Shown: positions 10,831 to 29,219 of the stretch, in pieces | Layout: each line of letters opens with the position of its first letter | Numbering within the stretch: position 1 is the stretch's first letter | Source: an uncultured Eubacteriales bacterium | GTDB lineage: Bacteria > Bacillota > Clostridia > Lachnospirales > CAG-274 | Reading direction: 5' to 3' | NCBI GenBank assembly: GCA_949738935.1 | Contig: CATJCJ010000350.1 | Coordinates: forward strand, 1 to 41,221 | DNA length: 41,221 bases | The notes under the pieces: generated by a model | Told to the model about the DNA's origin: nothing | The model's input: the letters and a program-made list of their open reading frames with translations, nothing else | Database searches by the model: none | Translations under genes and position numbers: made by a program

Positions 10831-10834
10831 TTTT

Positions 10835-11024: not shown

Positions 11025-11714
11025 ATGAAAAAAGGTAAGCTGTATGGCGTTGGCGTGGGTCCCGGAGATGAGGAGCTTATAACCCAAAAGGCTTTAAGAA
11101 TTTTGAGAGAATGTGATGTTATCGCCGTACCACTTATGAAAAACGGCGAAAGAACCGCTTTTAATATAGTTGAAAATTATATCAAGGACAAATTCATTAT
11201 AAACTGTGAAATGCCTATGAATAAAGATTTTAAACACCTTTCCGAAAACTATGGTAAAATCAGCGATATCATTGAGACCGAACTAAAAACAGGCAAAAAT
11301 GTGGCGTTTATCACTCTTGGATGTCCGACAGTTTACTCAACATATACACAAATAAACTCAATTATTCTTAACAGAGGATACGAAACGGAAATTATTCCCG
11401 GTATAACATCATTTTCGGCGGCGGCGGCAAAGCTTAACGTTCCATTATGCGAAAGAAACGAACCCCTCATTGTCCTTCCCGCGTCTTATAATGAGATTAA
11501 AAGTTTTTTACACATAAAAGGTACAAAAGTTTTGATGAAAGCCAACAAGGAAATTCAAAAAACACTGGAAACCCTAAAAAAAGAAAATCTTCTTGACACA
11601 AGCTATATGGCAGAACGATGCGGAATGAAAAACGAGCGGATATTCAAAGACCTTAATAAAGTCAGTGAAAATATGAGTTATTTTTCAACTATAATAGTTA
11701 AAGAAAAATCTTAA
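11025..11714 (+). CDS. cbiL: Cobalt-precorrin-2 C20-methyltransferase
   Basis: A 229-residue SAM-dependent methylase adding the C20 methyl during corrin ring synthesis, in the cytoplasm. KLYGVGVGPGDEELITQKAL is the family start, with the glycine-rich SAM loop, and IIPGITSFSAAAAKLNVPL is the second signature of the CbiL/CobI group. The ATG at 11025 follows GAGGTGA. It is the first structural gene behind the B12 riboswitch. Given the CbiK-like chelatase, CbiG and no sign of CobG, the cobalt-early substrate is more likely than metal-free precorrin-2. Confidence 0.93.
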   Translation: MKKGKLYGVGVGPGDEELITQKALRILRECDVIAVPLMKNGERTAFNIVENYIKDKFIINCEMPMNKDFKHLSENYGKISDIIETELKTGKNVAFITLGCPTVYSTYTQINSIILNRGYETEIIPGITSFSAAAAKLNVPLCERNEPLIVLPASYNEIKSFLHIKGTKVLMKANKEIQKTLETLKKENLLDTSYMAERCGMKNERIFKDLNKVSENMSYFSTIIVKEKS

Positions 11715-12501: not shown

Positions 12502-12550
12502 AAATAAAAAATATTTTCTAACCTTTCAAGCCCGAAAAGGAGGTGCACTT

Positions 12551-13582: not shown

Positions 13583-14741
13583 CTTAAACTCCCTTTCTCA
13601 AAGAGAAAAATTATCATTTACACCAGAAAAAATCATTAAAATCTGTAAAAATGTCTGTAACGAGAAAAACATATCAGGATGTATAATTATCTCAACTTGC
13701 GACAGAACAGAAATTTATATAAGTCATTATTCAAATGAACATCTTAACCCGGCTGAACTTTTAATAAAACACTCAGGTATCGACTTTGATGGAAGTTTTG
13801 ATATAAAAAGTGATATGAGTGTTGTATATCACATTATGCAGCTCGCCTGCGGACTTAAATCTCAAATTATTGGTGAGGGACAAATTGTCGGACAAATAAA
13901 TTCCGCCCTAAAACTTTGCGGGGAAAATAACTGTACCGACCCAATTCTCAACACTCTTTTCAGAACGGCTGTTTCCGCCGGAAAATACACACTTTCTCAT
14001 ACAAAGCTCTCAAATGTTCCTGTATCCAGCGCCTATGGAGCTGTTGAGCTTTTAGAAAATCTCAATAAAAAAAATCTCTCGGGAAAAACATGTGTTATAA
14101 TCGGAAACGGAAAAATGGGACAAATAGCTCAAAGTCTTTTAATAAAAAAGAACTGTAAAGTCTTTGTCACCCTGAGAGATTACAAGCACGGAAACAACGA
14201 TATAATAAAAGGCTGTAATGGAATAAAATATAAAGAGCGTTATAATTTTATTGACGGCGCTGATTTTGTCATAAGCGCGACAAAAAGTCCCCATTACACA
14301 ATAACTTATGATAAACTTTCAGCAATCAAGAAAAAACCGAGAATTATTATTGACCTCTCTCTTCCTCGCGATGTTGAGCCAAGCGTATCCGAAATTTGTT
14401 CTTGTTACAATATTGATGAACTTGGTTTTGAAACAAAAATCAATCCAAATGATTTAAAAACTGTCCAAAGCATAATAGAAAAATTTGTGAAAGATTTTAT
14501 ACAATGGAAAAACTATAAACTTTCTCTCCAAAACATAGCCTCAATAAAAAACAATATTACAAAAAGGATTGTCAGAAACGATATAATTGGACTTAATTTT
14601 AATGAAAAAATATCAAATGATATCATATCAAAAACAGTTGATAAAACTGTCAATATTCTCTTGGGAGGAATGAAAGAATGTGTTTCTCCGAACATTATGG
14701 AAAAATGTGATAAAAAAATCAAGGAACGAGGAAGATTATGA
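13551..14741 (+). CDS. hemA: Glutamyl-tRNA reductase
   Basis: First committed enzyme of the C5 route to 5-aminolevulinate: NADPH reduction of glutamyl-tRNA to glutamate-1-semialdehyde. The 396-residue protein has the nucleophilic Cys50 in IIISTCDRTEIY, the segment GLKSQIIGEGQIVGQI, and an NADPH-binding CVIIGNGKMGQIA. The start is the GTG at 13551, nine bases after GGGGAGG, which gives MKLLMAGINY. It is placed among cobalamin genes, so 5-aminolevulinate supply is coordinated with B12. The partner genes hemL and hemB are not in the window. Confidence 0.94.
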   Translation: MKLLMAGINYNLNSLSQREKLSFTPEKIIKICKNVCNEKNISGCIIISTCDRTEIYISHYSNEHLNPAELLIKHSGIDFDGSFDIKSDMSVVYHIMQLACGLKSQIIGEGQIVGQINSALKLCGENNCTDPILNTLFRTAVSAGKYTLSHTKLSNVPVSSAYGAVELLENLNKKNLSGKTCVIIGNGKMGQIAQSLLIKKNCKVFVTLRDYKHGNNDIIKGCNGIKYKERYNFIDGADFVISATKSPHYTITYDKLSAIKKKPRIIIDLSLPRDVEPSVSEICSCYNIDELGFETKINPNDLKTVQSIIEKFVKDFIQWKNYKLSLQNIASIKNNITKRIVRNDIIGLNFNEKISNDIISKTVDKTVNILLGGMKECVSPNIMEKCDKKIKERGRL

Positions 14742-15469
14742 ACAAAATATTTGTTGTTGGGCTTGGTCCCGGAGACTATGAGTATATGACAAAAAGGTCG
14801 TTGGAAGCCATAAAAAAAAGCGATGTTATTGTTGGATACAACCTATATATCGACCTCATTAAAGACCTTACAACAGGAAAAGAAATTTTTTCATCGCCAA
14901 TGCGCCGTGAGACTGAGAGATGTAAAAAAGCTCTTGAATATGCCCTATCAGGGAAAACCGTAACCGTTGTCTCAAGCGGGGATTCCGGTGTTTATGGCAT
15001 GGCGGGGCTTATACATGAAATATGCGCTGATTATCCAAACATTGATATTGAGGTTATTCCCGGAATTACGGCTTGCTGCGGCGCGGCGGCAATTCTGGGG
15101 GCGCCGATTATCCACGATTTCGCCGTCATAAGCCTGAGCGATTTACTCACTCCAATAGATAAAATTCACAAAAGAATAGCTTTAGCGTCTAAAGGTGATT
15201 TTGTTATTTGCGTCTACAATCCATCAAGCAAAAAAAGAGTGAATTATCTCAAGGAGGCATGCGGGATTATGCTCAAATACAAAGACCCCGAAACTCCCTG
15301 CGGATATGTCCGAAACATAGGCAGAGACAAAGAAGAACATAATATCGTCACACTGGCTGAGCTTTCTGATATAAAAGTTGATATGCTGACAACAATAATT
15401 ATCGGAAACAGCCAAACAAAAATTATAAACGGAAAATTAGTTACGCCAAGAGGATATAAAAATATATGA
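14738..15469 (+). CDS. cbiH: Cobalt-precorrin-3 C17-methyltransferase
   Basis: A 243-residue SAM-dependent methylase that methylates C17 with ring contraction. KIFVVGLGPGDYEYMTKRSL, then VGYNLYIDLI, SSGDSGVYGMAGLIHEI and PGITACCGAAAILGAP, are all signatures of the CbiH/CobJ group, and the C-terminal part has YNPSSKKR and GYVRNIGR. It overlaps the hemA stop by ATGA and its own end overlaps the next start, so the operon is tightly packed. Confidence 0.94.
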   Translation: MNKIFVVGLGPGDYEYMTKRSLEAIKKSDVIVGYNLYIDLIKDLTTGKEIFSSPMRRETERCKKALEYALSGKTVTVVSSGDSGVYGMAGLIHEICADYPNIDIEVIPGITACCGAAAILGAPIIHDFAVISLSDLLTPIDKIHKRIALASKGDFVICVYNPSSKKRVNYLKEACGIMLKYKDPETPCGYVRNIGRDKEEHNIVTLAELSDIKVDMLTTIIIGNSQTKIINGKLVTPRGYKNI

Positions 15470-16785
15470 GAATTTCTTTATTTTCAGGTACAAGCGAGGG
15501 CAAAGAAATAGCTGAATATCTAAACTCAAAAAAAATTTATACTTCCGTATTTGTCGCCACAGAATATGGCAAAGAAGTTATGAACGATATGAATTTTAAT
15601 TTTTTAAAAATACACATCGGCAGACTCGGCAAAAACGAAATAATTAAGTATATAAAAGACTCAGATTTAGTTATTGACGCTACCCACCCTTACGCTGAAA
15701 TTGTAACTCAAAATATTCAAATCGCCTGCGAGACAACGGGAGTTGAATACATACGTCTTTTAAGAGAAGAAAATAAAACTTTTAATGATATTAACAGCGT
15801 CATCACATTCGCGGAAAACATTGAACAAGCAGCTGAGTTTTTAAAATCAACCGATGGAAATATATTTGTATCTACAGGAATCAAAGATTTACACAAGTAT
15901 TGTGATATTAAAAACTACAAAAACAGAATAACAGCAAGAGTTCTTCCTTTGAAAGACTCCATAAAAAAATGCGATGAGCTTGGACTTAAAAAAGTCATCT
16001 ACAAAAAAGGGCCTTTTAGTCATACGGAAAATACAATCGAGTTTAAAAAACATAATATAAAATGGCTTGTCACAAAAAACTCAGGAAAAGCCGGAGGATT
16101 TGACGAGAAAATTTCCGCCGCTAAAAGTCTTGGCATAAATACAATCATAATAAAACGTCCGCCTGAGACAGGAGGTTTATCAATGGAACAAGTCAAAAAA
16201 CTTATTGACAAAAAAACCGGCGACATCAAAGAAAATTTAAAATTTCCTTTGTTTATTGATATTTCAGATAAAAATATACTTGTTGTCGGAGGCGGAAACA
16301 TAGCTTTCAAAAGAATGGCCTCTCTGTTAAAATTCGGCGCGAAAATTAAAGTTGTTTCCCCCGAGTTTGATAAAATCAAAATCCATAACTTTGAGAACGC
16401 CTCTGTTAAGTTTATAAAAAGAAAATTTGAGAAAAAAGACTTAGACAATGTTTTTATGGTTATAGGAGCGACCAACGACAGAGACGTAAATCATTACATT
16501 TATAAATTATGCCAAAACAAAAATATATTTTACAGCATAGCCGACAAAAAAGATGAATGCAATTTTTACTTTCCGGCTGTATGCGTAAATGATAAATTAA
16601 GTATAGGAATTGTTTCTGACGGAAATCAGCATAAGCTTGTAAAAGATACGGCGGAAAAAATAAGGGGGATAATCAATGAGCGGGAAAAAAATAAGAATAG
16701 GAAGCAGAGGAAGCAAACTCGCCATAACTCAAAGCGAAATCGTCGCGGATATCATAACAAAAAATTGTCCCGAATATACCGTTGA
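15466..16785 (+). CDS. Fusion: precorrin-6A reductase (CbiJ) + precorrin-2 dehydrogenase
   Basis: This 439-residue protein has two enzymes in one chain. Residues 1-245 are CbiJ/CobK (ISLFSGTSEGKEIAEYL, DATHPYAEIVTQN, then TKNSGKAGGFDEKI), which reduces precorrin-6A or its cobalt form. Residues about 258-400 match the NAD-binding part of SirC/Met8 (LVVGGGNIAFKRMASLLKFG, then IGATNDRDVN and FYFPAVC), which oxidises precorrin-2 to sirohydrochlorin. No chelatase or methylase domain follows. The last 35 or so residues, rich in Lys, Arg and Asn, are read from the 5' end of hemC in another frame (110-base overlap), so the natural end may be nearer 16680 and the stop lost. Confidence 0.88.
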   Translation: MRISLFSGTSEGKEIAEYLNSKKIYTSVFVATEYGKEVMNDMNFNFLKIHIGRLGKNEIIKYIKDSDLVIDATHPYAEIVTQNIQIACETTGVEYIRLLREENKTFNDINSVITFAENIEQAAEFLKSTDGNIFVSTGIKDLHKYCDIKNYKNRITARVLPLKDSIKKCDELGLKKVIYKKGPFSHTENTIEFKKHNIKWLVTKNSGKAGGFDEKISAAKSLGINTIIIKRPPETGGLSMEQVKKLIDKKTGDIKENLKFPLFIDISDKNILVVGGGNIAFKRMASLLKFGAKIKVVSPEFDKIKIHNFENASVKFIKRKFEKKDLDNVFMVIGATNDRDVNHYIYKLCQNKNIFYSIADKKDECNFYFPAVCVNDKLSIGIVSDGNQHKLVKDTAEKIRGIINEREKNKNRKQRKQTRHNSKRNRRGYHNKKLSRIYR

Positions 16786-17572
16786 GATTATAGCGATAAA
16801 AACTACAGGAGATAAAATCCTTGACAAAACTCTTGACAAAATTGGCGGAAAAGGACTTTTCGTAAAAGAACTCGATTCCGCCCTTCTTGAAAACAAAGTT
16901 GATATAACCGTTCATTCTTTAAAAGATGTTCCTGCCGTCACAGACAGCAGACTGCCCATAATAGCCTATACTGCTTGTGAGTCTCCTTATGATGTATTGG
17001 TTTTGCCAAAAGGGATAAATAATATTGATTTCTCAAAACCAATAGGCTCGTCAAGTAAAAGAAGAAGCCTGCAATTTAAAAAATTATATCCAAACGCTAA
17101 AATAAAACCAATTAGAGGTAATGTTGAGACAAGGCTGAAAAAACTTGACAACGGAGAATTTTCAGCCCTAATACTGGCACAGGCGGGACTCAACCGTCTT
17201 GGACTTAATGACAGAATAAGCAAAATATTTTCTGAGAACGAAATAATCCCCTCAGCCGGACAAGGAATAATCGCTGTTCAAGGAAAAAAAGATGTCTGTT
17301 TTAAATTTACAAAATATATAAACGACAAAAATAGTGAATATCGAGCTAAAGCCGAACGAGCGTTTATAAGAGAACTTGACGGCGGATGCTCCTCACCCAT
17401 CGCCGCTTTCGCCAAATTAAACCCCGTCAATGATGAGATTAAAATTACAGGCTTTTACGGTTCTGAAAATAATCTTAATATTAAAACAATTTCCGGCAGT
17501 CTCTCTGATGGGGAAACTCTTGGAATTTTGCTGGCAAAAAGAATAAAAGGAGATGTTTTATGTGAGCGGTAA
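16676..17572 (+). CDS. hemC: Hydroxymethylbilane synthase (porphobilinogen deaminase)
   Basis: Joins four porphobilinogen units into hydroxymethylbilane. The 298-residue protein starts KKIRIGSRGSKLAITQSEIV and has HSLKDVP and GNVETRLKKLDNGEFSALILA. The dipyrromethane-cofactor cysteine is Cys238 in GGCSSPIAAFA, close to the E. coli Cys242. GGGGGA precedes the ATG at 16676. It overlaps the upstream fusion gene by 110 bases and the next gene by 11, so expression is tied to both. Confidence 0.96.
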   Translation: MSGKKIRIGSRGSKLAITQSEIVADIITKNCPEYTVEIIAIKTTGDKILDKTLDKIGGKGLFVKELDSALLENKVDITVHSLKDVPAVTDSRLPIIAYTACESPYDVLVLPKGINNIDFSKPIGSSSKRRSLQFKKLYPNAKIKPIRGNVETRLKKLDNGEFSALILAQAGLNRLGLNDRISKIFSENEIIPSAGQGIIAVQGKKDVCFKFTKYINDKNSEYRAKAERAFIRELDGGCSSPIAAFAKLNPVNDEIKITGFYGSENNLNIKTISGSLSDGETLGILLAKRIKGDVLCER

Positions 17573-19061
17573 AGTTTGGCTTGTTGGTGCCGGCCCTGGA
17601 GATTTGGGACTTTTAACAATTAAAGGACTCGACATAATCAAAAGCGCCGATGTTGTTATTTATGACAGACTGGTTGGGGAAGATATTTTAAAACTTATTC
17701 CAAAAAACGCCGAAAAAATTGACGCGGGGAAAAAAAGCGCTGAACATAAAATACCCCAGGAAAATATAAATAAAATACTTCTTGAAAAAGCTATTCAAGG
17801 AAAAAATGTCGTACGCCTTAAAGGCGGAGATTGTTTCTTGTTTGGAAGAGGCGGTGAGGAATTGGAGCTTTTAAAAGATAATAACGTGGATTTTGAGGTT
17901 GTTCCCGGAATAACATCCGCTCTAGCTGTACCCGCCTATGGAGGAATTCCCGTAACTCATAGAGATTTTTCCTCTTCCGTTCATATTATTACAGGTCATC
18001 AAAAACAAAACACACCTTTGAGTATAAATTTTAAAAGCCTTGCCAAATGCGGAGGTACTCTTGTTTTTTTAATGGGTGTTGAAAACCTTGGGAACATAAC
18101 AAAAGGACTTATGAGCGAGGGAATGAGAAAAGATATGCCCTGCGGAGTTATTGAGCAAGGGACAACCCCAGAACAGCGAAAAATTATCTCAACACTTGAT
18201 AATATTGAGACAATATGCGAAAAAGAAAACATTAAAAGTCCCGCCGTTATAATTGTCGGAGAAGTATGCTCTCTCAACGAAAAATTTGACTGGTTTGATA
18301 AACTTCCATTAAAGGGAAAAAGCGTTATCGTCACACGTCCAAAAGACAGAGAGGAAACCCTCTCAAAAAAATTAAAAGCCCTTGGAGCGAAAGTTATTAA
18401 ATGTCCTTGTATAGAAACAATAAGCTTGATTGATGATTTAACTTTCAATGAAATCTTGGATAAAATTAAAGCATTTGATTGTGTGGCTTTCACCAGTCCA
18501 TTTGGGGTTAAAATTGTTTTTGAAAAACTGTTTGAGAAAAATTTTGACGGAAGAATTTTCGGAAACAAAAAAATAGCCGCTATAGGAAGCGCGACAAGCG
18601 CTCAACTCAAAAAATACGGATTATCCGCCGATTTTGTTCCAAAAACTTATGACGGAAAAAGTCTCGGCGCTTTACTTGGAAAAACTTTAAAAAACGACAG
18701 CGTTCTGTTGCTTCGTGCGAAAGAAGGTTCCGCTGAAATAACAAAGGAACTTACCAAAGCAAAAATCAAATTTGAGGATAAAACCATATATTATACAAAA
18801 TACGTAAACTCTATAGATAATGAAATTAAGCAAAAAATTGTCAATGGTAAAATTGATTTTATAACATTCACCTCGCAATCAACAGTTAAAGCTTTTACAT
18901 CTATCATAAAATACGGATATGATAAATTCATCGGCGTTTGCATAGGTGAAAAGACAAACAAAGAAGCCCTAAAATATGGAATATCAACTATTGTCAGTAA
19001 AAAAGCCTCTGTATGTGATATGATTTCATCAATTATTTTGGAGGTGAAAAAATGCCGTTAG
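17562..19061 (+). CDS. Fusion: uroporphyrinogen-III C-methyltransferase (CobA) + uroporphyrinogen-III synthase (HemD)
   Basis: A two-domain cytoplasmic enzyme of about 499 residues. Residues 1-245 are the SAM-dependent methylase making precorrin-2: KVWLVGAGPGDLGLLTIKG, RLKGGDCFLFGRGGEEL, VPGITSALAVPAYGGIPVTHR. Residues about 250-499 are HemD, which closes and inverts ring D: GKSVIVTRPKDREETLSKKL, FTSPFGVKIVFE, then FTSQSTVKAF. The fusion is common in Clostridia. The GTG at 17562 is chosen because AGGAG (17548-17552) is 9 bases away, whereas the ATG at 17553 touches it. Confidence 0.94.
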   Translation: MSGKVWLVGAGPGDLGLLTIKGLDIIKSADVVIYDRLVGEDILKLIPKNAEKIDAGKKSAEHKIPQENINKILLEKAIQGKNVVRLKGGDCFLFGRGGEELELLKDNNVDFEVVPGITSALAVPAYGGIPVTHRDFSSSVHIITGHQKQNTPLSINFKSLAKCGGTLVFLMGVENLGNITKGLMSEGMRKDMPCGVIEQGTTPEQRKIISTLDNIETICEKENIKSPAVIIVGEVCSLNEKFDWFDKLPLKGKSVIVTRPKDREETLSKKLKALGAKVIKCPCIETISLIDDLTFNEILDKIKAFDCVAFTSPFGVKIVFEKLFEKNFDGRIFGNKKIAAIGSATSAQLKKYGLSADFVPKTYDGKSLGALLGKTLKNDSVLLLRAKEGSAEITKELTKAKIKFEDKTIYYTKYVNSIDNEIKQKIVNGKIDFITFTSQSTVKAFTSIIKYGYDKFIGVCIGEKTNKEALKYGISTIVSKKASVCDMISSIILEVKKCR

Positions 19062-19681
19062 AAATTGTTAAACCCGCTGACATAGAAAAAAAAAGCTTTG
19101 AAATTATAACAGAAAAACTAAACGGAAAAATTTTTGGGGCCGGAAAAGACGATATAATAAAAAGAGTAATTCACACTTCCGCCGACTTTGACTACGCCGA
19201 TAATCTCGTTTTTTCCGATGGGGTTATAGACAAAGCTCTTTCGGCAATTAAATCCGGCGCTTGCATTATCACTGACACAAATATGGCATTCTCCGGAATT
19301 AACAAAAAAATAGTCTCAAAACTTGGCGGAGAAGTCAAATGCTTTATGAGTGACAAAGACGTTGCCCAAAAAGCCAAAGAAAGGGGTATTACAAGAGCTA
19401 TGGTCAGTATGGAAAAAGCTTGTTCTGTTGACAAAGAGCCAATCCTGGTTATTGGAAACGCGCCTACCGCTCTCATAAGAATTTATGAGCTTGTTATGGA
19501 GGGAAAACTTAATCCAAGCGTTGTTATCGGCGTTCCTGTTGGATTTGTAAATGTAACGGAAGCCAAAGAGCTTATCCTCAACAGTGCCATACCTCATATT
19601 GTCTCAAAAGGAAACAAAGGCGGAAGCACAATAGCGGCGGCTATTGTAAACGCTCTTATATATAAAATAAGAAAACATTAG
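19052..19681 (+). CDS. cbiC: Cobalt-precorrin-8 methylmutase
   Basis: Moves the C11 methyl to C12 to give cobyrinate. The 209-residue protein has the catalytic histidine at 41 in RVIHTSADFDYADNLVF, then the family segments CIITDTNMAFSGI and GNAPTALIRIYEL, and ends SKGNKGGSTIAAAIVNALIY. It overlaps the end of the preceding fusion by ten bases. The stop TAG is the first triplet of TAGACCTGTTTAATAA, the same motif that supplies the stop of the gene ending at 1039. Confidence 0.95.
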   Translation: MPLEIVKPADIEKKSFEIITEKLNGKIFGAGKDDIIKRVIHTSADFDYADNLVFSDGVIDKALSAIKSGACIITDTNMAFSGINKKIVSKLGGEVKCFMSDKDVAQKAKERGITRAMVSMEKACSVDKEPILVIGNAPTALIRIYELVMEGKLNPSVVIGVPVGFVNVTEAKELILNSAIPHIVSKGNKGGSTIAAAIVNALIYKIRKH

Positions 19682-19741: not shown

Positions 19742-20779
19742 ATGGAAAATGATATAAAAAAAATGCTTTTGAATAATAAAATCAAATACTTATCTGTTTT
19801 TACAATTCTTGTATTTCTGCTCGTTATTATATCTATCGTCAGCATAAGTACAGGAGCTATGGAAATAAAAACAGAAGATATTTTCAATATTATATACAAT
19901 AAATTGTTCGAAATTGAAACAGGAGTGGCGGAAAATGTAACAGCTGTAATATGGGACATACGTCTGCCAAGAATAATATGCGCTTGTTTTGTGGGAATGG
20001 GTCTGGCGGTTTCCGGAGTGATTTTTCAGGGAATACTTCAAAATCCCCTTGCCGACCCATATACTTTAGGAATTTCAACAGGAGCGAGTTTTGGCGCTTC
20101 TTTGGCTATTATGGCAAACTTAAATTGGGGAATTTACTTTCCGGTGACACCGGCCGCTTTATTAGGAGCTTTCAGCACACTTATTTTTGTTATTTTTATC
20201 ACTAAAAGAGGAGATGGGTTTGAGAGTTCAAATCTCATAATTGCCGGAATCATAGTAAGCTCAATATTGTCCTCCGGAGTAAGTTTTTTAAAGATGTCAG
20301 CGGGAGAAAATGTCGGAGCGATTGTATTTTGGATAATGGGAAGTTTATCGGCAAAAAACTGGAATGATGTTTTTCTAATTGTTCCAATCTCAACAATCTG
20401 CGTTATTCTCTCAGCTATATTCGCTGAAAAACTAGATATTATATCACTCGGCGATATGACCGCTGATTCCCTTGGAGTCAACACAAAAAGAATACGATTT
20501 ACATATCTGATAATAGGTTCTCTTATAACAGCGGCGTCTGTTTCTGTCTGCGGGGTAATAGGATTTATAGGTCTGATTGTCCCGCACTTACTGCGATTTT
20601 GGATTACCGCGAAAAACAGGCTATTAATCCCGCTTTCAGCAATATTTGGAGCCGTTTTGCTTTTATTCGCTGATTTTGCCGCCCGTATCATATCAGGAGG
20701 GGAAATTCCTGTGGGAGTCCTAACAACTCTAATCGGCGGTCCTTTTTTTATATTCATATTTATCAACAAAAAAAATTAA
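19742..20779 (+). CDS. FecCD-family ABC permease (BtuC-like)
   Basis: A 345-residue membrane permease of the type importing B12, haem and siderophores. It has about nine to ten hydrophobic segments. The family segments are IRLPRIICACFVGMGLAVSG and FQGILQNPLADPYTLGISTGA in the N-terminal half. GFIGLIVPHLLRFW, the loop contacting the ATPase, is in the C-terminal half. AAGGATAA precedes the ATG. Because it follows cbiC by 60 bases and is followed by ATPase, chelatase and binding-protein genes, a corrinoid or cobalt-tetrapyrrole cargo is inferred; haem or a siderophore remains possible. Confidence 0.9.
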   Translation: MENDIKKMLLNNKIKYLSVFTILVFLLVIISIVSISTGAMEIKTEDIFNIIYNKLFEIETGVAENVTAVIWDIRLPRIICACFVGMGLAVSGVIFQGILQNPLADPYTLGISTGASFGASLAIMANLNWGIYFPVTPAALLGAFSTLIFVIFITKRGDGFESSNLIIAGIIVSSILSSGVSFLKMSAGENVGAIVFWIMGSLSAKNWNDVFLIVPISTICVILSAIFAEKLDIISLGDMTADSLGVNTKRIRFTYLIIGSLITAASVSVCGVIGFIGLIVPHLLRFWITAKNRLLIPLSAIFGAVLLLFADFAARIISGGEIPVGVLTTLIGGPFFIFIFINKKN

Positions 20780-20837: not shown

Positions 20838-20990
20838 TATTAACGTGAGTTCGATGAAATTTTATAATTAATGGAACCTTTTTCTATCGCAAAAAGGTTC
20901 CAAACCACCAAAAATGCTCTTGAAGTATTAAAAACCTTGAGGTTTCACCTCAAACTCCACAAACTTTTGTGCGAAACTACGTTTCGCCGA
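20838..20990 (-). repeat. Long dispersed repeat, copy 2 (inverted, internally deleted)
   Basis: The reverse complement of 1-176: TTAACGTGAGTTCGATGAA, the GGAACCTTTTT...AAAAAGGTTCC hairpin, AAAACCTTGAGGTTT and ACTCCACAAAC through GCGAAACTACGTTTCGC. About 25 bases of the copy-1 middle (the AAACTTTTTTCAAAAAG region) are missing. It lies between the permease and ATPase genes of the transporter. The rest of 20780-21044 shows no gene. Confidence 0.85.
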
Positions 20991-21044: not shown

Positions 21045-21851
21045 ATGTCAGAAATTTTAAAAATTGAAAATCTGTACTTTAATTATGGAAATACAAAAAA
21101 CGGAAATAAAAATAATAAGTTTTTTCTAAAAAATATTAATATTGTTATAAATGAGGGAGAAATGATTTCTGTTATAGGTAAAAACGGCAGCGGAAAAACT
21201 ACCCTCTTTAAAACAATAAACGGAATTTTAAAAAATTACAAAGGAAACATTCTCTATAAAGGTAAAGATATAAAAAAACTAACTTCTTTGGAAAAGGCAA
21301 AAGAAATTGCCGTTTTATATCAAAATAACAAATGTGATTTCCCATTCAGCTGCTTTGAGATTGTTTCTATGGGGCTCTATCCCCACAAAAGCAATTTAAT
21401 AAAAATGAGAAAACAAGATATTGATTTTATAACCAATATCATGGAATCGACAAATACCATACATCTAGCATGTAAAGATATAAATAGAATAAGCGGAGGT
21501 CAGGCTCAAAGGGTATTGCTCGCCAGAGCTTTGGCTCAAAAACCAAAACTGCTGTTTCTTGACGAGGCGATGAGCGGTCTTGACATATCATCAAGGATAC
21601 AAATGACTAAACTGCTTTATAACGAACGTAAAACAAAAGGTACTACTACTGTGAGCGTATCTCACGATATAAACCTTGCTTTTGAGAAAAGCGATAAAAT
21701 AATCGCTCTTAAAGATGGAGAAGTACATTCCTTTGGAAAACCCGAGGAATTGCTTAATAAAGATTTTTTCCGGGAAGTGTTTAACGTGGAGGTGGAAATT
21801 GATACTATAAAAAAGCGCTTTCGTATAATATATGACTCAAAAAAAGATTAA
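21045..21851 (+). CDS. ABC transporter ATPase (BtuD/FecE-like)
   Basis: A 268-residue ATPase energising the adjacent permease. Walker A is GKNGSGKT (about residues 45-52), the Q-loop is LYQNN, the signature is ISGGQAQRV (about 148), Walker B is LLFLDEA (about 170) and the H-loop is VSHD. In the Walker B/D-loop, LDEAMSGLD replaces the common LDEPTxxLD. The gene is separated from its permease by a 153-bp repeat copy; AGGA is the only ribosome-site candidate, so expression could be weaker than that of its neighbours. Confidence 0.93.
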   Translation: MSEILKIENLYFNYGNTKNGNKNNKFFLKNINIVINEGEMISVIGKNGSGKTTLFKTINGILKNYKGNILYKGKDIKKLTSLEKAKEIAVLYQNNKCDFPFSCFEIVSMGLYPHKSNLIKMRKQDIDFITNIMESTNTIHLACKDINRISGGQAQRVLLARALAQKPKLLFLDEAMSGLDISSRIQMTKLLYNERKTKGTTTVSVSHDINLAFEKSDKIIALKDGEVHSFGKPEELLNKDFFREVFNVEVEIDTIKKRFRIIYDSKKD

Positions 21852-21869: not shown

Positions 21870-22838
21870 ATGAGAAAAAAGATTTTGGGGTTGATTTTAA
21901 TGATTGCGACTGTAATATCAGCGTTTGGCGGATGTTCTGAAAACAACAGCGACATCAAAGAAGCAAACGCTGTTGCCAATGAACAAAACACCGAAACAGA
22001 AGTAACAGCTGATAATAACAAAAAAGGTGATATAAATAAAAAGGCTGTTCTTGTTGTAAGTTTCGGTACAAGCTACAACGAATCCAGAGAAAAAACAATT
22101 GGTTCCGTTGAGAAAAAAATAGCGTCGGCTTTTCCGGATTACGACCAAAAAAGAGCCTTTACAAGTCAGACAATAATCGACAAAATAAACCAAAGAGACG
22201 GGGAAAAAATAGACAATGTTACAGAGGCTATGGAAAAACTTGTAGATGATGGATACGGCACTTTAGTTATTCAGCCGACACACGTTATGAACGGTGAGGA
22301 ATATGATGAGATGAAAAAACTCACATCTCCTTTTGAGAAAAACTTTGCCTCAATTAAATATGGCAAGCCATTACTCACATCAAGCGACGACTATGCGAAA
22401 GTTGTCGGAGCGATAGCGAAAGACATCCCTCAGCTTGCGGATAAAAGCAATATTGTTGTGTTTATGGGGCATGGAACAGCTCATTTCGCCAATGCCGCTT
22501 ATTCCGCTCTTGACTACAGATTTAAGGCTATGGGCTATAAAAACGCTCTTGTCGGCACTGTTGAGGGTTATCCGGACCTTGATAAAATTAAAACAGACAT
22601 TGCCGCTTACAGCCCCAAACCAAAAAAAGTAATTCTTGTTCCTCTTATGATTGTTGCCGGAGACCACGCCACAAATGATATGGCGGGAGATGAGGAAGAT
22701 AGCTGGAAAATCCAATTAAAAAAAGAAGGTTATGAGGTTGAGTGTATATTAAAAGGACTTGGGGAATATTCCGGCATTCAGGATATGTTCGTTGACCACT
22801 GTAAAACAGCGATGAACGAAAGTGCTGAGGAGGCTTAA
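21870..22838 (+). CDS. cbiK: Sirohydrochlorin cobaltochelatase CbiK-like, predicted lipoprotein
   Basis: The 322-residue protein has a CbiK-type chelatase domain (about residues 57-315), which inserts Co(II) into sirohydrochlorin. It shows LVVSFGTSYNESREKT, VIQPTHVMNGEEYDE (His138), FMGHGTAHFAN (His201, His205), GTVEGYPDL and IVAGDHATNDMAGDE (His266), so the metal-binding histidines are retained. Unlike cytoplasmic CbiK, it begins with a hydrophobic signal and lipobox SAFGGC (Cys22), then a 35-residue Asn/Glu-rich linker, so it should sit on the outer face of the membrane. Desulfovibrio has a periplasmic CbiK, which gives precedent. No start codon immediately before the domain suggests a cytoplasmic form. 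Confidence 0.88.
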   Translation: MRKKILGLILMIATVISAFGGCSENNSDIKEANAVANEQNTETEVTADNNKKGDINKKAVLVVSFGTSYNESREKTIGSVEKKIASAFPDYDQKRAFTSQTIIDKINQRDGEKIDNVTEAMEKLVDDGYGTLVIQPTHVMNGEEYDEMKKLTSPFEKNFASIKYGKPLLTSSDDYAKVVGAIAKDIPQLADKSNIVVFMGHGTAHFANAAYSALDYRFKAMGYKNALVGTVEGYPDLDKIKTDIAAYSPKPKKVILVPLMIVAGDHATNDMAGDEEDSWKIQLKKEGYEVECILKGLGEYSGIQDMFVDHCKTAMNESAEEA

Positions 22839-22841
22839 AAA

Positions 22842-24272
22842 ATGCCGAAAATTTTCTTTGTTATTTTTTTCGCTATAGTTTTTTCAGGCTGCGGAACGGA
22901 AAACAGCAAAACTTCGGAGGCAACGGCCGAAATTAACCTAAAGAACAGCATTATAAGTTTTACAGACGATGACGGCAAAGAAATAAATATGGATAAACCG
23001 GCCGAAAGGATAATATCGCTTTATTCCGCCCATACCGAAAACTTATATTATCTTGGAGTGGGAAATAAAGTAATCGGAGGATATAAAACCTGTACATATC
23101 CTCCCGAGGCCGCTTTTCTGGATATGTTTGACTATAACGGCGACCCCGAGGCAATCATAGCGGCAAACCCTGATTTAGTACTGATTCGTCCCTTTGTAAG
23201 AAGAAAATCACCGGACTATGTCAGCGCCCTTGAAAACGCCGGAATAAATGTCGTTTCCCTCTATCCTGACAAATTAGAAGAATTCGACAATTATATAAAT
23301 AAACTGGCTTTGATTACAGGCTCTGAGGAAAAGGCGTCAATTTTGCTTACCGATTTTCATAAAGAACTTGACAGTATAAAAAAAATCACATCAGGTATCT
23401 CAGAAAAACAAACTATATTTTTTGAATCTACAGAGACAAATATAAGAACAGTCACACCTAATTCTATGGCGGGATTAGCCATTGACTTTGCCGGAGGAGA
23501 AAACATAGCCAAAAACTCATCTCCTATTGAGGCAGGGAGTTCTATTGCTGAGTTTGGGGAAGAAAAAATTCTTCTAAACGCCGATAAAATAGATGTATAT
23601 ATCTCTCAAAGAGGTTCCATGAACAGCGGAGCGAGTAAACAGGGAATATCTGAAAGACCCGGCTTTGACACAATCAAAGCCATCAAAAATAACAGATTTT
23701 TCACAATAAACGAAAAATTGATTTCCTCCCCAACATTCAGATATGTAAAAGGCGTCAGAGAAATAGCCAGATATTTATATCCCGATATTATAAACGATAT
23801 CTCAGAATACAAAAACGACAATCCCTCCACAAGAAGAGATTTCGCCAATATATTATTTAAAGTCAAAAATCTTCCGTTATTTATTCCAAGTTCTTCCTCA
23901 TACTATAAAACCGAGCGAAAAGGACATACATTTGGTTTGTTTGAGGATATAAACTGGCAGGACAGAGATTTTGACAGTATTGAGACAAGCGTTGAACACG
24001 GATATATTGAGGAAATAAAAGAAAACGGCAAAGAATATTTCAAACCTGACGCTAATGTAACTCGTGACGAGCTTGCTCAAACTATATTTGTTATGGGAAA
24101 TTTCACATCAAACAATAAAAACATTCCCATATCTGATATTACAGAGAGCAAACATCAACAAATTGTTCAAACCCTCGTGGATAATGATGTTTTTAAACTA
24201 AATAATGGTAAATTTGAGCCAAATCGGGTTGTCACCAATAACGAAATATTAAAAATATTGTTTGAGTTGTAA
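22842..24272 (+). CDS. ABC substrate-binding lipoprotein (BtuF/FecB-like) with C-terminal SLH repeats
   Basis: A 476-residue extracytoplasmic binding protein. The signal ends in FSGC (Cys17), a lipobox. Residues about 35-315 form a type-III binding domain: PAERIISLYSAHTENLYYLGVG, then ANPDLVLIRPFV and ERPGFDTIKAIKNNRFFTI. Residues about 335-476 look like SLH repeats: LFEDINWQDRDFDSIETSV...YFKPDANVTRDELAQTIF is nearly canonical, followed by a weaker repeat ending FEPNRVVTNNEILKIL, with a partial one before. A binding protein carrying both a lipid anchor and SLH repeats is unusual. The ATG follows the cbiK stop by 3 bases after GAGGAGG. Confidence 0.85.
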   Translation: MPKIFFVIFFAIVFSGCGTENSKTSEATAEINLKNSIISFTDDDGKEINMDKPAERIISLYSAHTENLYYLGVGNKVIGGYKTCTYPPEAAFLDMFDYNGDPEAIIAANPDLVLIRPFVRRKSPDYVSALENAGINVVSLYPDKLEEFDNYINKLALITGSEEKASILLTDFHKELDSIKKITSGISEKQTIFFESTETNIRTVTPNSMAGLAIDFAGGENIAKNSSPIEAGSSIAEFGEEKILLNADKIDVYISQRGSMNSGASKQGISERPGFDTIKAIKNNRFFTINEKLISSPTFRYVKGVREIARYLYPDIINDISEYKNDNPSTRRDFANILFKVKNLPLFIPSSSSYYKTERKGHTFGLFEDINWQDRDFDSIETSVEHGYIEEIKENGKEYFKPDANVTRDELAQTIFVMGNFTSNNKNIPISDITESKHQQIVQTLVDNDVFKLNNGKFEPNRVVTNNEILKILFEL

Positions 24273-24371: not shown

Positions 24372-24420
24372 AAAAAAGAAATCAATTTTCTGCTTTTCGA
24401 AAAATTGATTTCTTTTTTTA
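24372..24420 (+). terminator. Terminator of the cobalamin/transport block
   Basis: AAAAAAGAAATCAATTTT (24372-24389) and its complement (24401-24418) with an 11-base loop, ending in a T-run. Just before it, GAGATAAAAATTATTTTCGCGAGG (about 24322-24345) matches the core of the TATAG-family repeats. Confidence 0.85.
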
Positions 24421-24449
24421 TTGTTTTCTTTTTTTAATTGTTGTATAAT
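24421..24449 (+). promoter_or_regulatory. Putative promoter of the rhamnogalacturonan lyase gene
   Basis: TTGTTT (24421-24426), 17 bases, TATAAT (24444-24449), about 85 bases before the ATG. Confidence 0.55.
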
Positions 24450-24533
24450 AATAAGGAAATATATACATATATTTTTATCTTTACTTCTAAAATATATGCA
24501 AAACGTAAAAAATATTCAGAAAGGTGTGAAGCT

Positions 24534-27500
24534 ATGTTAAAAAGAATACTAAGTTGTTTGCTGGCTGTTTCTATGATTTTGGGACTTAACACTTTTTCAG
24601 TGTTTGCCGAGGGCGAAGGAACCTCCTCTTCCCCCAAAAAAATGGAATACTTGACAAGAGGCGCTTTTGGAGCCTCAATTGACGGAAACATCTATTTAAG
24701 CTGGCGTCTTTTGGGAACAGAACCCGCCAACACAACCTTCAACATTTATTGTAACAATAAAATAATTGAAACAGGGCTCAACAACACAAACTATACTCAT
24801 AAAGGGGGAAATATATATAATAAATATCAAGTCGCTCCTGTGATAAATGGTGTGGAACAATCCCGCTCAAATGATATCACCATATTGACAGGACACAAAG
24901 ACAGTAATTATACGAATTCCCCTTACGCTTACTTTGACGTTCCGATTAAAGCTCCAAATCCAAACAACTGCGGTTATTATGAGGCAAACGACGCTTCTGT
25001 CGGTGACCTTGACAGTGATGGAGAATACGAGATAATCTTAAAATGGAACCCTGACAACGCAAAAGACAATTCTCAGTCGGGAAAAACAGGAAATGTTTAT
25101 ATTGACGCTTATGAAATGGACGGAACTCTTTTATGGAGAATAGATTTGGGAAGAAATATCCGTGCCGGAGCTCACTATACTCAATATATAGTTTATGACT
25201 TTGACGGAGACGGAAAAGCTGAATTAGCCACAAAAACCGCTCCTGGCTCAAAAGACGGTCAGGGAAATTTCGTTACCGAAGCGGGAGTCTCTGACGAGAT
25301 TAAAAACGCCGACAATACAAAACAATACGGCAACTCAAAAGGATTTATTTTAGACGGCCCCGAATATTTAACAATATTCGACGGTTTAACAGGCGCGGCA
25401 ATGCAAACCATTTTATACAATCCAAACAGAACAGATGAGAAATTCTGGGGTGATAAAAACGCGAGTCAAGGAAACCGTGTCGATAGAATGCTTGCGGGAG
25501 TCGCTTATCTTGACGGAATCCACCCAAGTCTTATAATGTGCCGCGGATATTACGCAAGGTCAGTAGTTGTGGCTTATGACTGGGACGGTAAAAATTTAAA
25601 ACAAAAATGGATATTAGACTCAAAAAGTGATAAATCAAATAAATTTTATGGACAAGGAAATCATCAAATTTCCGTAGCCGATTTGGACAACGACGGTTTT
25701 GATGAAATTATCTATGGCTCGGCGGCGATTGACCACGACGGAACACTCCTTCACTCAACAGGTTGGGGGCACGGCGACGCTCTTCACGTTTCCGATTTTA
25801 ATAACGATGGTGAACAAGAGATATTCAGTGTTCTTGAAGATTCTCCTCACTGGGGAACAGGTTTTAGAAAAGGAACAACAAAAGGAGACGCCAATATTCT
25901 CTGGAAAAAGACAGCTACATTTGACGTCGGCCGCGGATTAATGACAATTATGAGTGAAAAACACGGCGCTCTCGGCTGGAGCAGTCAAGGTCAAAAAGAA
26001 GTAAGCGGAAAAAAGGTATATTTCGCGTATAATTTAAAAGGAGAGGAAATTGACTTTACCTCAAATTCCAATGGCTGCTCACCAAACTTTGCCATATATT
26101 GGGACGGAGATTTACTTCGTGAGCTTGCCGATGGAGATAGAATTATAAAATGGAACGATACTACCGGCGGTTTTGACAGAATGTTAACATTATCAGAATC
26201 AAATCCTGTTGGAACAAATAACACAAGCAAAAAAAATCCTTGTTTACAAGCGGATTTATTTGGCGACTGGAGAGAGGAAATAATATTAAGACACTATGAC
26301 AACAGCGCTTTAAGAATCTTTGCCTCAATCACGCCAACAGATTATAAAATGCCGACTCTTATGCATGATAGTCAATACAGATGTGCCATAGCTTGGCAAA
26401 ATGTCGCTTATAATCAACCACCTCATCCAAGTTATTATATTGGTCCGACAAAAACAACATACTCTCAGCCAAATATTGAGCCTGTCGTTAAAAATAAAGC
26501 CGTATTTACAATAACGGCAAATGACGGTTCTCCGGTTAAAGACGCTAAAATAACAATTAGCAACGGCACAATCATAGTCACAAATTCAGAGGGTAAAGCG
26601 GAAACTCCAATTTTGCCCGGAACCTACAAATACTCAATTAAATGCGTAGGATTTGACGCTGTTGGAGAAACAGAGTTTACTGTCAACGAAAATGATGAAA
26701 TAACAAACGTAACAAACAGTATGAACGCTAAAACTAATTGCACTGTCAGCGTCTCATTTAAAACACCCGACGGAAAAGAATTAAAACCATCGGAAAATCA
26801 TACCGGGTTGACAGCAAATACAGAATTTATCGTTGATGAAGCCCTCAAAGAGGATATTACTGATTCTGACGGAAAAATTTATGAGTACAATCCAAATCTC
26901 TCAAGCAACTCTTCTTTCACAGTTCTTGATGATGAGGAAGTTAGGCTTGTATTTGTTGAGAAAACTCTCCCCGGAATTTATGGAACAGAGTATTATCGAA
27001 CAAACTTCTCAAACGACGGTTTTTCAGGACTTTCCAATAAACACGGCTATACAGCGGGAACACCTTTAAGCTCAGGAATAACCGGCGGCATTAAATACAG
27101 TTCTTATTCTATCGGCGGCACTTCAAACGACTCAATTACAATAGATATTCCCGAGAGAATTCAGGGAAAGTTTGTCGCTGAGTTTGATATGGCTTATGAC
27201 ACTGAAACAGGTGGAGGAACTATATGGGGAATAACCCCATACAGTGGAACAAAAACAGGCCCGACCCTTGGTGTAAGATTGGCCGGAGCCGGCGGCGGTT
27301 ATAAATTAAATCCCGCTTATTATTCCGATAAAAACAAAACCAGTTATAACGGTTCTGTTTCTGTCGATACGGGCAAAATGTACAGACATATCTTAGAATG
27401 TGACGGAGAAAAACTATATTTAACAATAGCCGACGCTCAAACAGGCACAATGGTCGTAAATAAATATGAGGCAATGACCAACAAAGATTTAACTCTTGGT

Positions 27501-29219
27501 ACTGATAAAATTGACAAATTCACTTTTAATAAAGTGACCGGAACCGGAAGTATAAATTTTAACCTTGGAGATTTCCGTGTATACAGTGTCTCAGCGCCAA
27601 ATAACTTTGAGTGGGAGAACAACAGCAATATTAATGTCTCAATTCCATCTCAGACAAACCTCGCTCCAAAAAGCTACGGTTTTATAACAGGCATAAGTTC
27701 ATATAAAATAGCTGTTGACGGAAATATGACCTATTCCCTGACAAAAGCCGATGGAACAGCCGTTTCCGACCAAGATGGAGTAACTATTGATGAAAACGGT
27801 TTACTCACTGTTTCCGAAACTCCTGTAAAAGGTGATTACAAAGTTGTATGCAAATACAATGATGTTGTGATAAAAGAATATACAATAACCGTAATAAAAA
27901 ATGAGATTGTAAATATATACACCTCAACAAATGATACCACCGGTGAGTTATTCAGCGAATATGACAATAAATATGACGATGTCAAATACTCCTACAGCAA
28001 AGGACAGTGGACTTTCAATCAAGACGGAACAGCGGGAGGACGTGAATTCTATGGAGAACTCTATCCGACCGACAGCGGAGAAGCGACATTGAGCTTTAGA
28101 TTTGCCACAGGTGGAGAAAAAGACGATGCCGGTAATTGGGACTTCACAGGAAGAGAATATAACTATGAACTTCAGCTTATGGACTCCAGCTATAATGGGG
28201 AAGACCCTGAAAGCCATGTTATCCTTGGTTTTTCTCAGGAGTATCTCGCTAAAGCTCAGGAAGTACAATATTATACAAAACACAGGGCCCTGACCCAAGT
28301 TAAAAACCCCTTGCATTTTACAGGAGAATACACAACCGACGACCTCAAAAAGAATGATATCACAGCGAGAAGCGGAACAAACTGGGATGTTACAGTCAAA
28401 TTTAATTTTGACAAAAAGACTGTATCTTTCGATTTATTCGCCAAAGATATGAATGCCGGTTATAGATATGAAAACATTCCGACAGCCGGCGGATTTAAGG
28501 GAATAAGACTTGTTTCCAGCGGAGACGAGCGAATAAAATGGTCTCCAAAAATAAGCAACATTGTATACTCAAAACGAGCGTATGAACCTTCCGCCATAAA
28601 TCCTGATACTATTAAGCTTGTTCCCGGAAAAAATTCTATTTCCGTAGACTTTAAAGCTCCAAACGACGGCGGTTCCCCAATGACTTATAAAGTCTCATTG
28701 TTCAATCCCGACGATGAAAGCGGAAAAGCTGTTTATGAAAAAGAAACAAAAACAATTCCAGTTGTATTTGAAAATATTCCCGCGGGTGAATACAGTTATA
28801 TAGTAAAAATAGCTTCAAACAACCTAATAAGCTCAAATGACGAAGTTGTCTCCAAACCTCTTAATGTTACGGTTACTGATGACACGCCTCCTATTGTTGA
28901 ACCTTCTATTAATATAACTGTTGAGGATGATACATTATCAGAAGAAGGAGTTTTAAACTTTAAAGCCAAAGTTACCGCCGCCAATATAGAAAGTCAAAAG
29001 GGAGTTGTTTATGCCGCTCTCTATGACGCTGACGGAAATATAATAAGCAGCAATTCCGATGAAAAAACACTTATCAACGGTGATAATCTTTCTGAATTCA
29101 GCTTAGATACAAAAAATATTTCAAATATCACATTAAAAGTATTTCTCTGGGACAGCGCCGAGGGAATGAAACCTCTTTATAACACAAATGCTTTTATAAA
29201 AAAAATAAATAAAGTTTAA
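24534..29219 (+). CDS. Secreted multidomain rhamnogalacturonan lyase (PL11)
   Basis: A 1561-residue exported enzyme that cleaves the rhamnose-galacturonate backbone of rhamnogalacturonan-I by beta-elimination. The signal peptide (KRILSCLLAVSMILGLNTFSVFA) is followed by the PL11 catalytic propeller, about residues 35-645: MEYLTRGAFGASIDGNIYLSWR, then calcium-type DLDSDGEYE, DFDGDGKAE, DLDNDGFDE, DFNNDGEQE, and FGDWREEIILR. After it come a carboxypeptidase-regulatory-like domain (655-730), a small beta domain (735-810), two carbohydrate-binding-like regions (820-1025, 1125-1345) around an Ig-like one, a fibronectin-III domain (1347-1450) and a C-terminal module with FLWDSAEGMKPLYN. There is no SLH anchor. 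The ATG at 24534 follows AAGGTG and gives the signal peptide; an upstream frame opening at 24438 is rejected. Confidence 0.92.
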   Translation: MLKRILSCLLAVSMILGLNTFSVFAEGEGTSSSPKKMEYLTRGAFGASIDGNIYLSWRLLGTEPANTTFNIYCNNKIIETGLNNTNYTHKGGNIYNKYQVAPVINGVEQSRSNDITILTGHKDSNYTNSPYAYFDVPIKAPNPNNCGYYEANDASVGDLDSDGEYEIILKWNPDNAKDNSQSGKTGNVYIDAYEMDGTLLWRIDLGRNIRAGAHYTQYIVYDFDGDGKAELATKTAPGSKDGQGNFVTEAGVSDEIKNADNTKQYGNSKGFILDGPEYLTIFDGLTGAAMQTILYNPNRTDEKFWGDKNASQGNRVDRMLAGVAYLDGIHPSLIMCRGYYARSVVVAYDWDGKNLKQKWILDSKSDKSNKFYGQGNHQISVADLDNDGFDEIIYGSAAIDHDGTLLHSTGWGHGDALHVSDFNNDGEQEIFSVLEDSPHWGTGFRKGTTKGDANILWKKTATFDVGRGLMTIMSEKHGALGWSSQGQKEVSGKKVYFAYNLKGEEIDFTSNSNGCSPNFAIYWDGDLLRELADGDRIIKWNDTTGGFDRMLTLSESNPVGTNNTSKKNPCLQADLFGDWREEIILRHYDNSALRIFASITPTDYKMPTLMHDSQYRCAIAWQNVAYNQPPHPSYYIGPTKTTYSQPNIEPVVKNKAVFTITANDGSPVKDAKITISNGTIIVTNSEGKAETPILPGTYKYSIKCVGFDAVGETEFTVNENDEITNVTNSMNAKTNCTVSVSFKTPDGKELKPSENHTGLTANTEFIVDEALKEDITDSDGKIYEYNPNLSSNSSFTVLDDEEVRLVFVEKTLPGIYGTEYYRTNFSNDGFSGLSNKHGYTAGTPLSSGITGGIKYSSYSIGGTSNDSITIDIPERIQGKFVAEFDMAYDTETGGGTIWGITPYSGTKTGPTLGVRLAGAGGGYKLNPAYYSDKNKTSYNGSVSVDTGKMYRHILECDGEKLYLTIADAQTGTMVVNKYEAMTNKDLTLGTDKIDKFTFNKVTGTGSINFNLGDFRVYSVSAPNNFEWENNSNINVSIPSQTNLAPKSYGFITGISSYKIAVDGNMTYSLTKADGTAVSDQDGVTIDENGLLTVSETPVKGDYKVVCKYNDVVIKEYTITVIKNEIVNIYTSTNDTTGELFSEYDNKYDDVKYSYSKGQWTFNQDGTAGGREFYGELYPTDSGEATLSFRFATGGEKDDAGNWDFTGREYNYELQLMDSSYNGEDPESHVILGFSQEYLAKAQEVQYYTKHRALTQVKNPLHFTGEYTTDDLKKNDITARSGTNWDVTVKFNFDKKTVSFDLFAKDMNAGYRYENIPTAGGFKGIRLVSSGDERIKWSPKISNIVYSKRAYEPSAINPDTIKLVPGKNSISVDFKAPNDGGSPMTYKVSLFNPDDESGKAVYEKETKTIPVVFENIPAGEYSYIVKIASNNLISSNDEVVSKPLNVTVTDDTPPIVEPSINITVEDDTLSEEGVLNFKAKVTAANIESQKGVVYAALYDADGNIISSNSDEKTLINGDNLSEFSLDTKNISNITLKVFLWDSAEGMKPLYNTNAFIKKINKV

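Follow-up and report, generated by a model that had tools for sequence, protein, structure and literature searches.

An exported CbiK-family chelatase encoded with a FecCD-type importer at the end of a cobalamin-synthesis operon

The insertion of cobalt into sirohydrochlorin is expected to take place in the cytoplasm; the structure 2xvx is that of a periplasmic CbiK from Desulfovibrio, which also keeps a cytoplasmic CbiK. The Desulfovibrio genes cbiK-cbiL and btuCDF stand under one B12 riboswitch (PMC545781), and in Porphyromonas a CbiK-like lipoprotein found with an importer, IhtB, is thought to take iron from haem (PMC10913741). The FetB structure 9b86 starts at about the end of the IhtB signal peptide, so IhtB and FetB are apparently the same protein. 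Here we describe an exported CbiK encoded together with a binding lipoprotein and the permease and ATPase of an importer in an uncultured Eubacteriales bacterium of the lineage CAG-274 (Lachnospirales). The stretch analysed, called the window, is 41,221 nucleotides long (positions 1 to 41,221, forward strand, of contig CATJCJ010000350.1 in assembly GCA_949738935.1). On balance we favour the reading that the four genes form a salvage and cobalt-loading module for B12 (cobamide) synthesis.

Bacteria that could use such a module have been described. The tetrapyrrole precursor salvagers of Shelton 2018, mainly Firmicutes, have corrin-ring genes without the upper tetrapyrrole pathway, and in the accessible passages of that paper no importer or exported chelatase is described for them (PMC6461909). 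According to the same passages, Porphyromonas gingivalis is without the steps to precorrin-2 (PMC6461909, citing Roper 2000), and it was called an 'enigma' of cobalamin synthesis in 2000.

An exported chelatase beside an importer

The chelatase gene lies at 21870 to 22838 on the + strand and encodes 322 amino acids (aa), of which aa 58-315 match PF06180 over the full length of the model (positions 1-261 of 262) with 299.6 bits, as compared to the curated 26.2. The protein starts with MRKKILGLILMIATVISAFGG followed by Cys at residue 22, a lipoprotein-type signal with a lipobox ending in FGG before the Cys, as called by eye and by pattern, and this is followed by a linker of about 35 residues rich in Asn, Asp, Glu and Thr. 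The signal is conserved among the relatives. His201 and His266, which correspond to His145 and His207 of the Salmonella CbiK, are invariant in an alignment with 1qgo, 2xvx, 9b86 and the relatives, and His138 and Glu144 are likewise invariant when aligned with the three structures. The PF06180 match and these residues bear out the intact chelatase histidines behind a lipobox that the original prediction had noticed. Against NF047852, the equivalog model of the cytosolic sirohydrochlorin cobaltochelatase CbiK, the protein scores 293.7 bits, below the cut-off of 400, and its lipobox signal sets it apart from the cytosolic enzyme, which has no export signal. Between the lipobox Cys and the chelatase domain there is no ATG, GTG or TTG in frame, which makes a shorter cytosolic form from an ordinary internal start unlikely, and dual localisation of the window CbiK by an internal start was rejected. 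Of 83 lipobox CbiK genes, 28 are without any in-frame start past the Cys and 55 have some.

Exactly three bases after the cbiK gene, as originally noted, begins the gene of a substrate-binding lipoprotein (Peripla_BP_2; 22842 to 24272, + strand; PF01497 65.6 bits) with a lipobox ending in FSG before the Cys. The SLH repeats ascribed to it were also found: its C-terminal part of about 145 aa (23835 to 24269, + strand) has two to three SLH-like repeats by eye, and there is one PF00395 match above the cut-off of 20.8 (26 bits, aa 393-412). This tail is kept in the Firmicute and Anaerolineaceae relatives and is missing from the spirochaete ones, and binding proteins of the window type (type A, see below) are strongly conserved from Firmicutes through spirochaetes. 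The AlphaFold model has a predicted local distance difference test (pLDDT) score of 82, and the best matching folds are iron, haem and B12 binding proteins.

The predicted ATPase and permease of the importer are present upstream on the same strand, a FecCD-type permease at 19742 to 20779 (PF01032 307.5 bits) and a FecE-type ATPase at 21045 to 21851 (PF00005 105.9 bits). The matches to PF01032, PF00005 and PF01497 are all above their cut-offs, as in a FecCD-type (type II) ATP-binding cassette (ABC) importer. The BtuFCD equivalog cut-offs were not reached (BtuC 240.5 as compared to 461 and 216 as compared to 334, BtuF 42.5 as compared to 234), and the binding protein scores 25.9 bits against the IsdE equivalog, whose cut-off is 298.65 bits. 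The coordinates and the description of the chelatase and binding-protein pair in the original prediction hold as far as they go, but they omit that the genes close a cobalamin-synthesis operon of cbi and hem genes, all on the same strand and mostly overlapping.

The source assembly is 97% complete with 8.6% contamination. A second, signal-less CbiK or a CbiX, which the original prediction proposed to look for, was not found in it: the window gene is the single PF06180 match, and CbiX gave none. Wherever a CbiX match turned up in the 46 genomes that have a locus of the exported CbiK type, it fell within a CbiK. With no further CbiK and no separate CbiX, a second chelatase doing the cobalt insertion was rejected. 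The paradox, as far as the predicted signal can tell, is that the only chelatase of its class in the source genome is exported.

Exported and cytosolic CbiK in related genomes

The order was surveyed in 295 genomes, many of them metagenome assemblies, and 127 had a PF06180 match; the loci were retrieved and 116 genomes classified, the exported status being called from a lipobox or signal pattern and inspection. CbiK was exported only in 38 genomes, cytosolic only in 70, and of both kinds in 8. Lipobox CbiK co-occurs with FecCD importers, a pattern for which the original prediction had suggested a survey, since 38 of the 46 exported CbiK genes have FecCD on the same strand at a distance of up to 4 kb, as compared to 3 of the 68 cytosolic ones. 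The order's exported genes group in a single clade of the CbiK tree, with 54 members of which 8 are cytosolic, and none of these 8 has FecCD within 4 kb. Lost signals thus coincide with lost FecCD linkage, which counts against the explanation that the signal is incidental. In a second sample of 80 named loci (L numbers), from genomes of unknown completeness, the module was observed in Lachnospiraceae, Ruminococcus, Peptococcaceae, Anaerolineaceae and several spirochaetes. The pair of CbiK and binding protein is kept together in relatives, both in the loci of the order and in the named ones. One record labelled Alistipes sp. (L210) has an exported CbiK module resembling Firmicute loci and may be a mis-binned contig. 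A TwoAYGGAY RNA match of 72.8 bits was observed near an exported CbiK locus, on the opposite strand at 4931-5090 of L111.

The gene order of the window, FecCD-FecE-CbiK-binding protein, was named type A, and the order CbiK-middle protein-binding protein-FecCD-FecE type B. The middle protein has a tandem NEAT fold in the AlphaFold model (pLDDT 83), and the best Foldseek matches were IsdH, IsdB and IsdX1 (probability 1.0, E down to 4e-7). A sequence-profile search of the PDB gave no relative of it, the NEAT fold being visible from the predicted structure only, and the best Pfam NEAT score for two stand-alone middle proteins (the L038 fragment and L062/L068) was 21.3 as compared to the 32.8 bits of the model. 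Most exported systems carry an extra NEAT-fold protein, in many cases joined in one chain with CbiK or the binding protein, and the type A module in the window is itself without a NEAT gene. There were 19 CbiK-NEAT and 19 NEAT-binding protein fusions, and in one lipoprotein of 941 aa CbiK, NEAT and binding protein are all joined. By their predicted domains and signals, the fusions would bring CbiK and the binding protein together with a tetrapyrrole-binding fold on the outside of the membrane. Two predicted FecE-CbiD fusions (L101, open reading frame of 647 aa, and L133, 698 aa) would tie the importer ATPase to corrin synthesis. Other fusions of CbiK were observed with HemC (L104, L126), CbiC (L109) and CbiL (L235).

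The cytosolic CbiK often adjoins, or is fused to, an ATPase of the energy-coupling factor (ECF) type. With the cytosolic form beside an ECF ATPase and the exported form beside FecCD, CbiK appears to be paired with a metal importer whether it lies inside or outside the membrane. A cytosolic CbiK with a C-terminal ECF/CbiO-like ATPase in one protein of 530-600 aa was observed in L175, L178, L180, L181, L186, L188 and L079, and the domain arrangement of such fusions suggests a direct transfer of cobalt from importer to chelatase. CbiK of the cytosolic type, close to the bacterial ones, was also observed in Thermoplasmata archaea (L217, also L187, L208 and L214), with two in tandem in L217.

Cobalt, ring salvage and the rival explanations

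The connection between the module and B12 synthesis has good support. All 38 exported-only genomes have CbiD, which marks the anaerobic B12 pathway, as compared to 75 of the 257 others, and a cobalamin riboswitch lies directly upstream of cbiK in 11 of the 12 tested exported loci that are not of the window layout (type B). A cobalt-type CbiM was present in none of the 38, as compared to 36 of 49 cytosolic-only genomes with CbiD. The sole apparent exception is the source genome, whose CbiM groups with the nickel type, with 76% identity to a fused nickel-type CbiM from a relative as compared to about 24% for the cobalt-type ones; that a fused CbiM is of the nickel type accords with published practice and is presumed here. 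NiCoT was absent from all 58 genomes tested, CbtX and CorA not being searched. The distribution of these genes suggests that the exported module replaces the import of cobalt ions by CbiM.

Of the 38 exported-only genomes, 22 have neither HemC nor CobA, which implies that they cannot make sirohydrochlorin; at a completeness of 95% or more the count is 16 of 28. The original prediction had CbiK acting where sirohydrochlorin is made; this is the expected cytoplasmic role, but in many carriers sirohydrochlorin is not made. Of the named genomes, 19 of the 34 with an exported CbiK are without CobA, as compared to 0 of the 16 with a cytosolic one. Furthermore, among the cytosolic-only genomes FecCD was found beside CbiK in all five that lack CobA, as compared to none of the 29 that have it (p 4e-6). 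A relative from the same family (G054) has the operon order of the window minus exactly HemA, the CysG domain, HemC and CobA-HemD. If their corrin genes work, the carriers without HemC and CobA must, to judge from their gene content, take up a ring from a step past CobA. Sirohydrochlorin or another methylated uroporphyrinoid would fit, and haem would not, because by established chemistry it cannot enter the corrin pathway.

In the mechanism that we propose, a sirohydrochlorin-type tetrapyrrole would be captured on the outside of the membrane, with the assistance of the NEAT protein in most relatives and probably by the SLH-tailed binding lipoprotein alone in the window. The lipid-anchored CbiK would insert cobalt into the ring outside the cell, the binding protein would hand the cobalt-loaded ring to FecCD/FecE for import, and inside it would feed CbiL or the next corrin-ring enzymes. 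In the genomes without HemC and CobA the module would be the only entry for a ring. In the source genome it would be a second source of the ring beside the HemA-HemC-CobA-CysG route, and some cobalt may there be inserted inside by the CysG-type domain. Where the importer stands beside a cytosolic CbiK, the ring would come in without metal and receive its cobalt inside. The anchoring signals, the intact active site, the linkage, the fusions and the patterns of co-occurrence and loss can be read from the sequences, and it is from these that we infer the identity of the ring, the site of cobalt insertion, the direction of flow and the import of a metallated ring.

The original prediction allowed CbiK, outside the membrane, to bind, metallate or hand over tetrapyrroles or metal to the importer. 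The linkage to FecCD, the NEAT and binding-protein fusions, the loss of HemC and CobA and the missing cobalt CbiM all agree with metallation and hand-over, and we do not favour the haem or iron capture that it included, since the module goes with B12 synthesis, as seen from CbiD and the cobalamin riboswitches. For haem, the exported CbiK would be a reverse ferrochelatase or part of a haem relay and the importer would take up haem or iron, much as IhtB is proposed to strip iron from haem (PMC10913741). A 'heme-binding protein FetB' is indeed among the close PDB relatives of the window CbiK, the NEAT fold of the relatives' middle protein is that of haem carriers, and haem binding proteins are among those that the binding protein resembles. 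Such scavenging seems improbable to us, as it predicts neither CbiD in 38 of 38 genomes, cobalamin riboswitches before cbiK and the missing cobalt CbiM, nor the FecE-CbiD fusions and the HemC/CobA loss, and haem has no way into the corrin pathway. The original prediction is thus partly supported: it was right in direction, and a B12-specific role is better supported than haem capture.

It is also conceivable that only cobalt is acquired, CbiK and the binding protein being extracellular cobalt-binding proteins that supply the importer with Co(II) or a chelate of it in place of CbiMNQO, without transport of a ring. In Sinorhizobium, cobalt is imported by the ABC transporter CbtJKL, which is controlled by a B12 riboswitch (PMC7689651), and the absence of cobalt CbiM from all exported-only genomes and of NiCoT from 58 of 58 would be accounted for. 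We consider this unlikely, since it leaves unexplained why HemC and CobA are lost in 22 of 38 genomes, why the importer stands beside a cytosolic CbiK only where CobA is lacking, and why there is a NEAT fold and a fully conserved chelatase active site. An ordinary corrinoid importer like BtuFCD, with an incidental signal on CbiK and a cytosolic CbiK fraction inserting cobalt as usual, is hardly any easier to accept. The window CbiK has no start codon past the Cys from which that fraction could be made, there are CbiK fusions with NEAT and binding-protein domains, which are extracellular, the window importer stays below the BtuC and BtuF cut-offs, and in the tree the signal is lost together with the FecCD linkage. 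These points outweigh, in our opinion, the B12 riboswitch control, the similarity to the BtuCDF family, the in-frame starts past the Cys in 55 of the 83 lipobox genes, and the Desulfovibrio cbiK-cbiL genes with btuCDF under one B12 element (PMC545781).

There are also observations that weigh against a salvage and cobalt-loading module itself. The source genome and 15 other exported-only genomes can probably make their own sirohydrochlorin, since CobA and HemC are present, and in these 16 either cobalt loading inside would be needed, perhaps by the CysG domain, or the ring must exit the cell. No sirohydrochlorin exporter is conserved in the module: apart from lineage-specific genes and further cbi genes, clustering of the neighbours brought up only the NEAT protein, and a module-encoded exporter was rejected on these grounds. 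That sirohydrochlorin is available outside cells is an assumption of the salvage model, and no paper on its uptake or import was found in the open-access literature, which is not proof of absence. CbiL was undetected in 12 of the 22 exported-only genomes without HemC and CobA, so the ring may enter the pathway at a stage after cobalt-sirohydrochlorin; in these carriers it may be imported with a further methyl group in place, or an unknown enzyme may serve. The fold of the binding protein cannot separate haem, B12 and siderophores, and an attempt to identify the ligand from its structure gave none. Finally, the tree yields 3-5 independent contrasts for the exported state, below significance, and 6 for the importer linkage, also not significant. 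Most of the contrasts that differ point in the expected direction, and they are too few because the counts rest on related genomes. Genomes observed with CbiD and no detected HemC, CobA or CbiL are G157, G018, G129, G229, G083, G246, G199, G221, G210, G277 and G234; G272 is also without the three, but its assembly is only 78% complete.

A further step, which we offer tentatively, is that sirohydrochlorin, be it the cell's own, escaped or from neighbours, could serve as a siderophore-like carrier of cobalt that is loaded by the surface-anchored chelatase and then imported. This would imply that one machine acquires both the metal and the ring, and that B12 precursors pass between species.

The operon in the window and the known systems

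Upstream of the operon is a candidate cobalamin (adenosylcobalamin) riboswitch at 10714 to 10859 on the + strand, with a full-length RF01482 match of 28 bits as compared to the gathering score of 50. Its aptamer core is nearly identical in three relatives, whose leaders score 45.2 (G054) and 31.6 bits (G211) against RF00174, cut-off 31.5, and 38.5 bits (G259) against RF01482, cut-off 50. The genes that follow, all on the + strand, start with the C20-methyltransferase CbiL (11025 to 11714; TP_methylase, TIGR01467 E 4e-66, above cut-off) and a TP_methylase (11743 to 12501; PF00590 165.8 bits) assigned as CbiF from the operon order and the similarity to relatives. After these come CbiG (12455 to 13582; PF11760, PF11761 and PF01890), with a true start probably downstream of the listed ATG, the glutamyl-tRNA reductase HemA (13500 to 14741; PF05201, TIGR01035 at its cut-off) and CbiH (14738 to 15469; TIGR01466 318.7 bits, above cut-off). 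A fusion of CbiJ with the N-terminal part of CysG, a precorrin-2 dehydrogenase, lies at 15466 to 16785 (PF02571 and PF13241; TIGR00715 and TIGR01470 above cut-off), HemC at 16676 to 17572 (PF01379, PF03900), and a CobA-HemD fusion at 17553 to 19061 (TIGR01469 312.5 bits, above cut-off; HemD models on the C-terminal half). The last gene before the permease is CbiC (19052 to 19681), to which the precorrin-8X methylmutase models give 234-243 bits, below the equivalog cut-offs. Past the binding-protein gene a probable terminator, an AT-rich inverted repeat with a T run, was seen by eye at 24374 to 24419 on the + strand; it is not among the calls of the terminator scan, which requires 3 G-C pairs.

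A hairpin repeat, AAAAAGGTTCCAAACC, was observed at 20872-20906, between FecCD and FecE, and it recurs on the opposite strand at 109-124, near the start of the window. FecCD and FecE are 265 bp apart here, more than in relatives, and the hairpin may therefore be a repeat element that was inserted. Directly before the riboswitch-like leader, at 10630-10710, there is a long and nearly perfect inverted repeat, AGTCAATCAACTT, that resembles a small mobile repeat. Genes for a TetR regulator, an HlyD-like adaptor and an AcrB-type resistance-nodulation-division pump lie upstream of the operon (5125-10448), and directly downstream of the module is a large rhamnogalacturonan lyase (family 11; 24438-29219), unrelated to it.

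If our proposal is true, a biosynthetic metal-insertion step has been relocated to the outside of the cell, and it is misleading to annotate exported CbiK proteins as the usual cytosolic enzymes. For bacteria that keep the corrin pathway yet are unable to make the starting ring, the module would provide a candidate importer and extracellular enzyme, and it suggests that B12 precursors, besides finished B12, are traded in anaerobic communities. The salvagers of Shelton 2018 are alike in having corrin-ring genes without the upper pathway and differ in that, in the accessible part of that work, the use of 5-aminolevulinate alone was tested (PMC6461909). Among the described systems, the cytosolic CbiK with CbiMNQO shares the chelatase family, the active site and the B12 role, but it has no signal peptide, cobalt import is of the ECF type, and the upper tetrapyrrole pathway is mostly present. 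Relays of haem of the Isd type have the NEAT fold seen in relatives of the module, a PF01497 binding protein and FecCD/FecE, and pass a tetrapyrrole inward, whereas they contain no chelatase and are under haem or iron control, and the window module is without a NEAT gene. The Iht system of Porphyromonas gingivalis likewise encodes a CbiK-like lipoprotein (40% identity) with a binding protein, permease and ATPase, but it has an outer-membrane TonB receptor and is read as uptake of iron from haem; the cobalamin question in this bacterium, open since 2000, becomes directly testable. The periplasmic CbiK of Desulfovibrio, given as a precedent in the original prediction, holds in so far as the homologue 2xvx and a BtuCDF-type importer with cbiK-cbiL are alike, but the identity is 35%, and no NEAT or binding-protein fusions are reported there in the accessible passages of PMC545781. 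Compared with these systems, the module is a variant assembled from known parts, with a role that is probably specific to B12.

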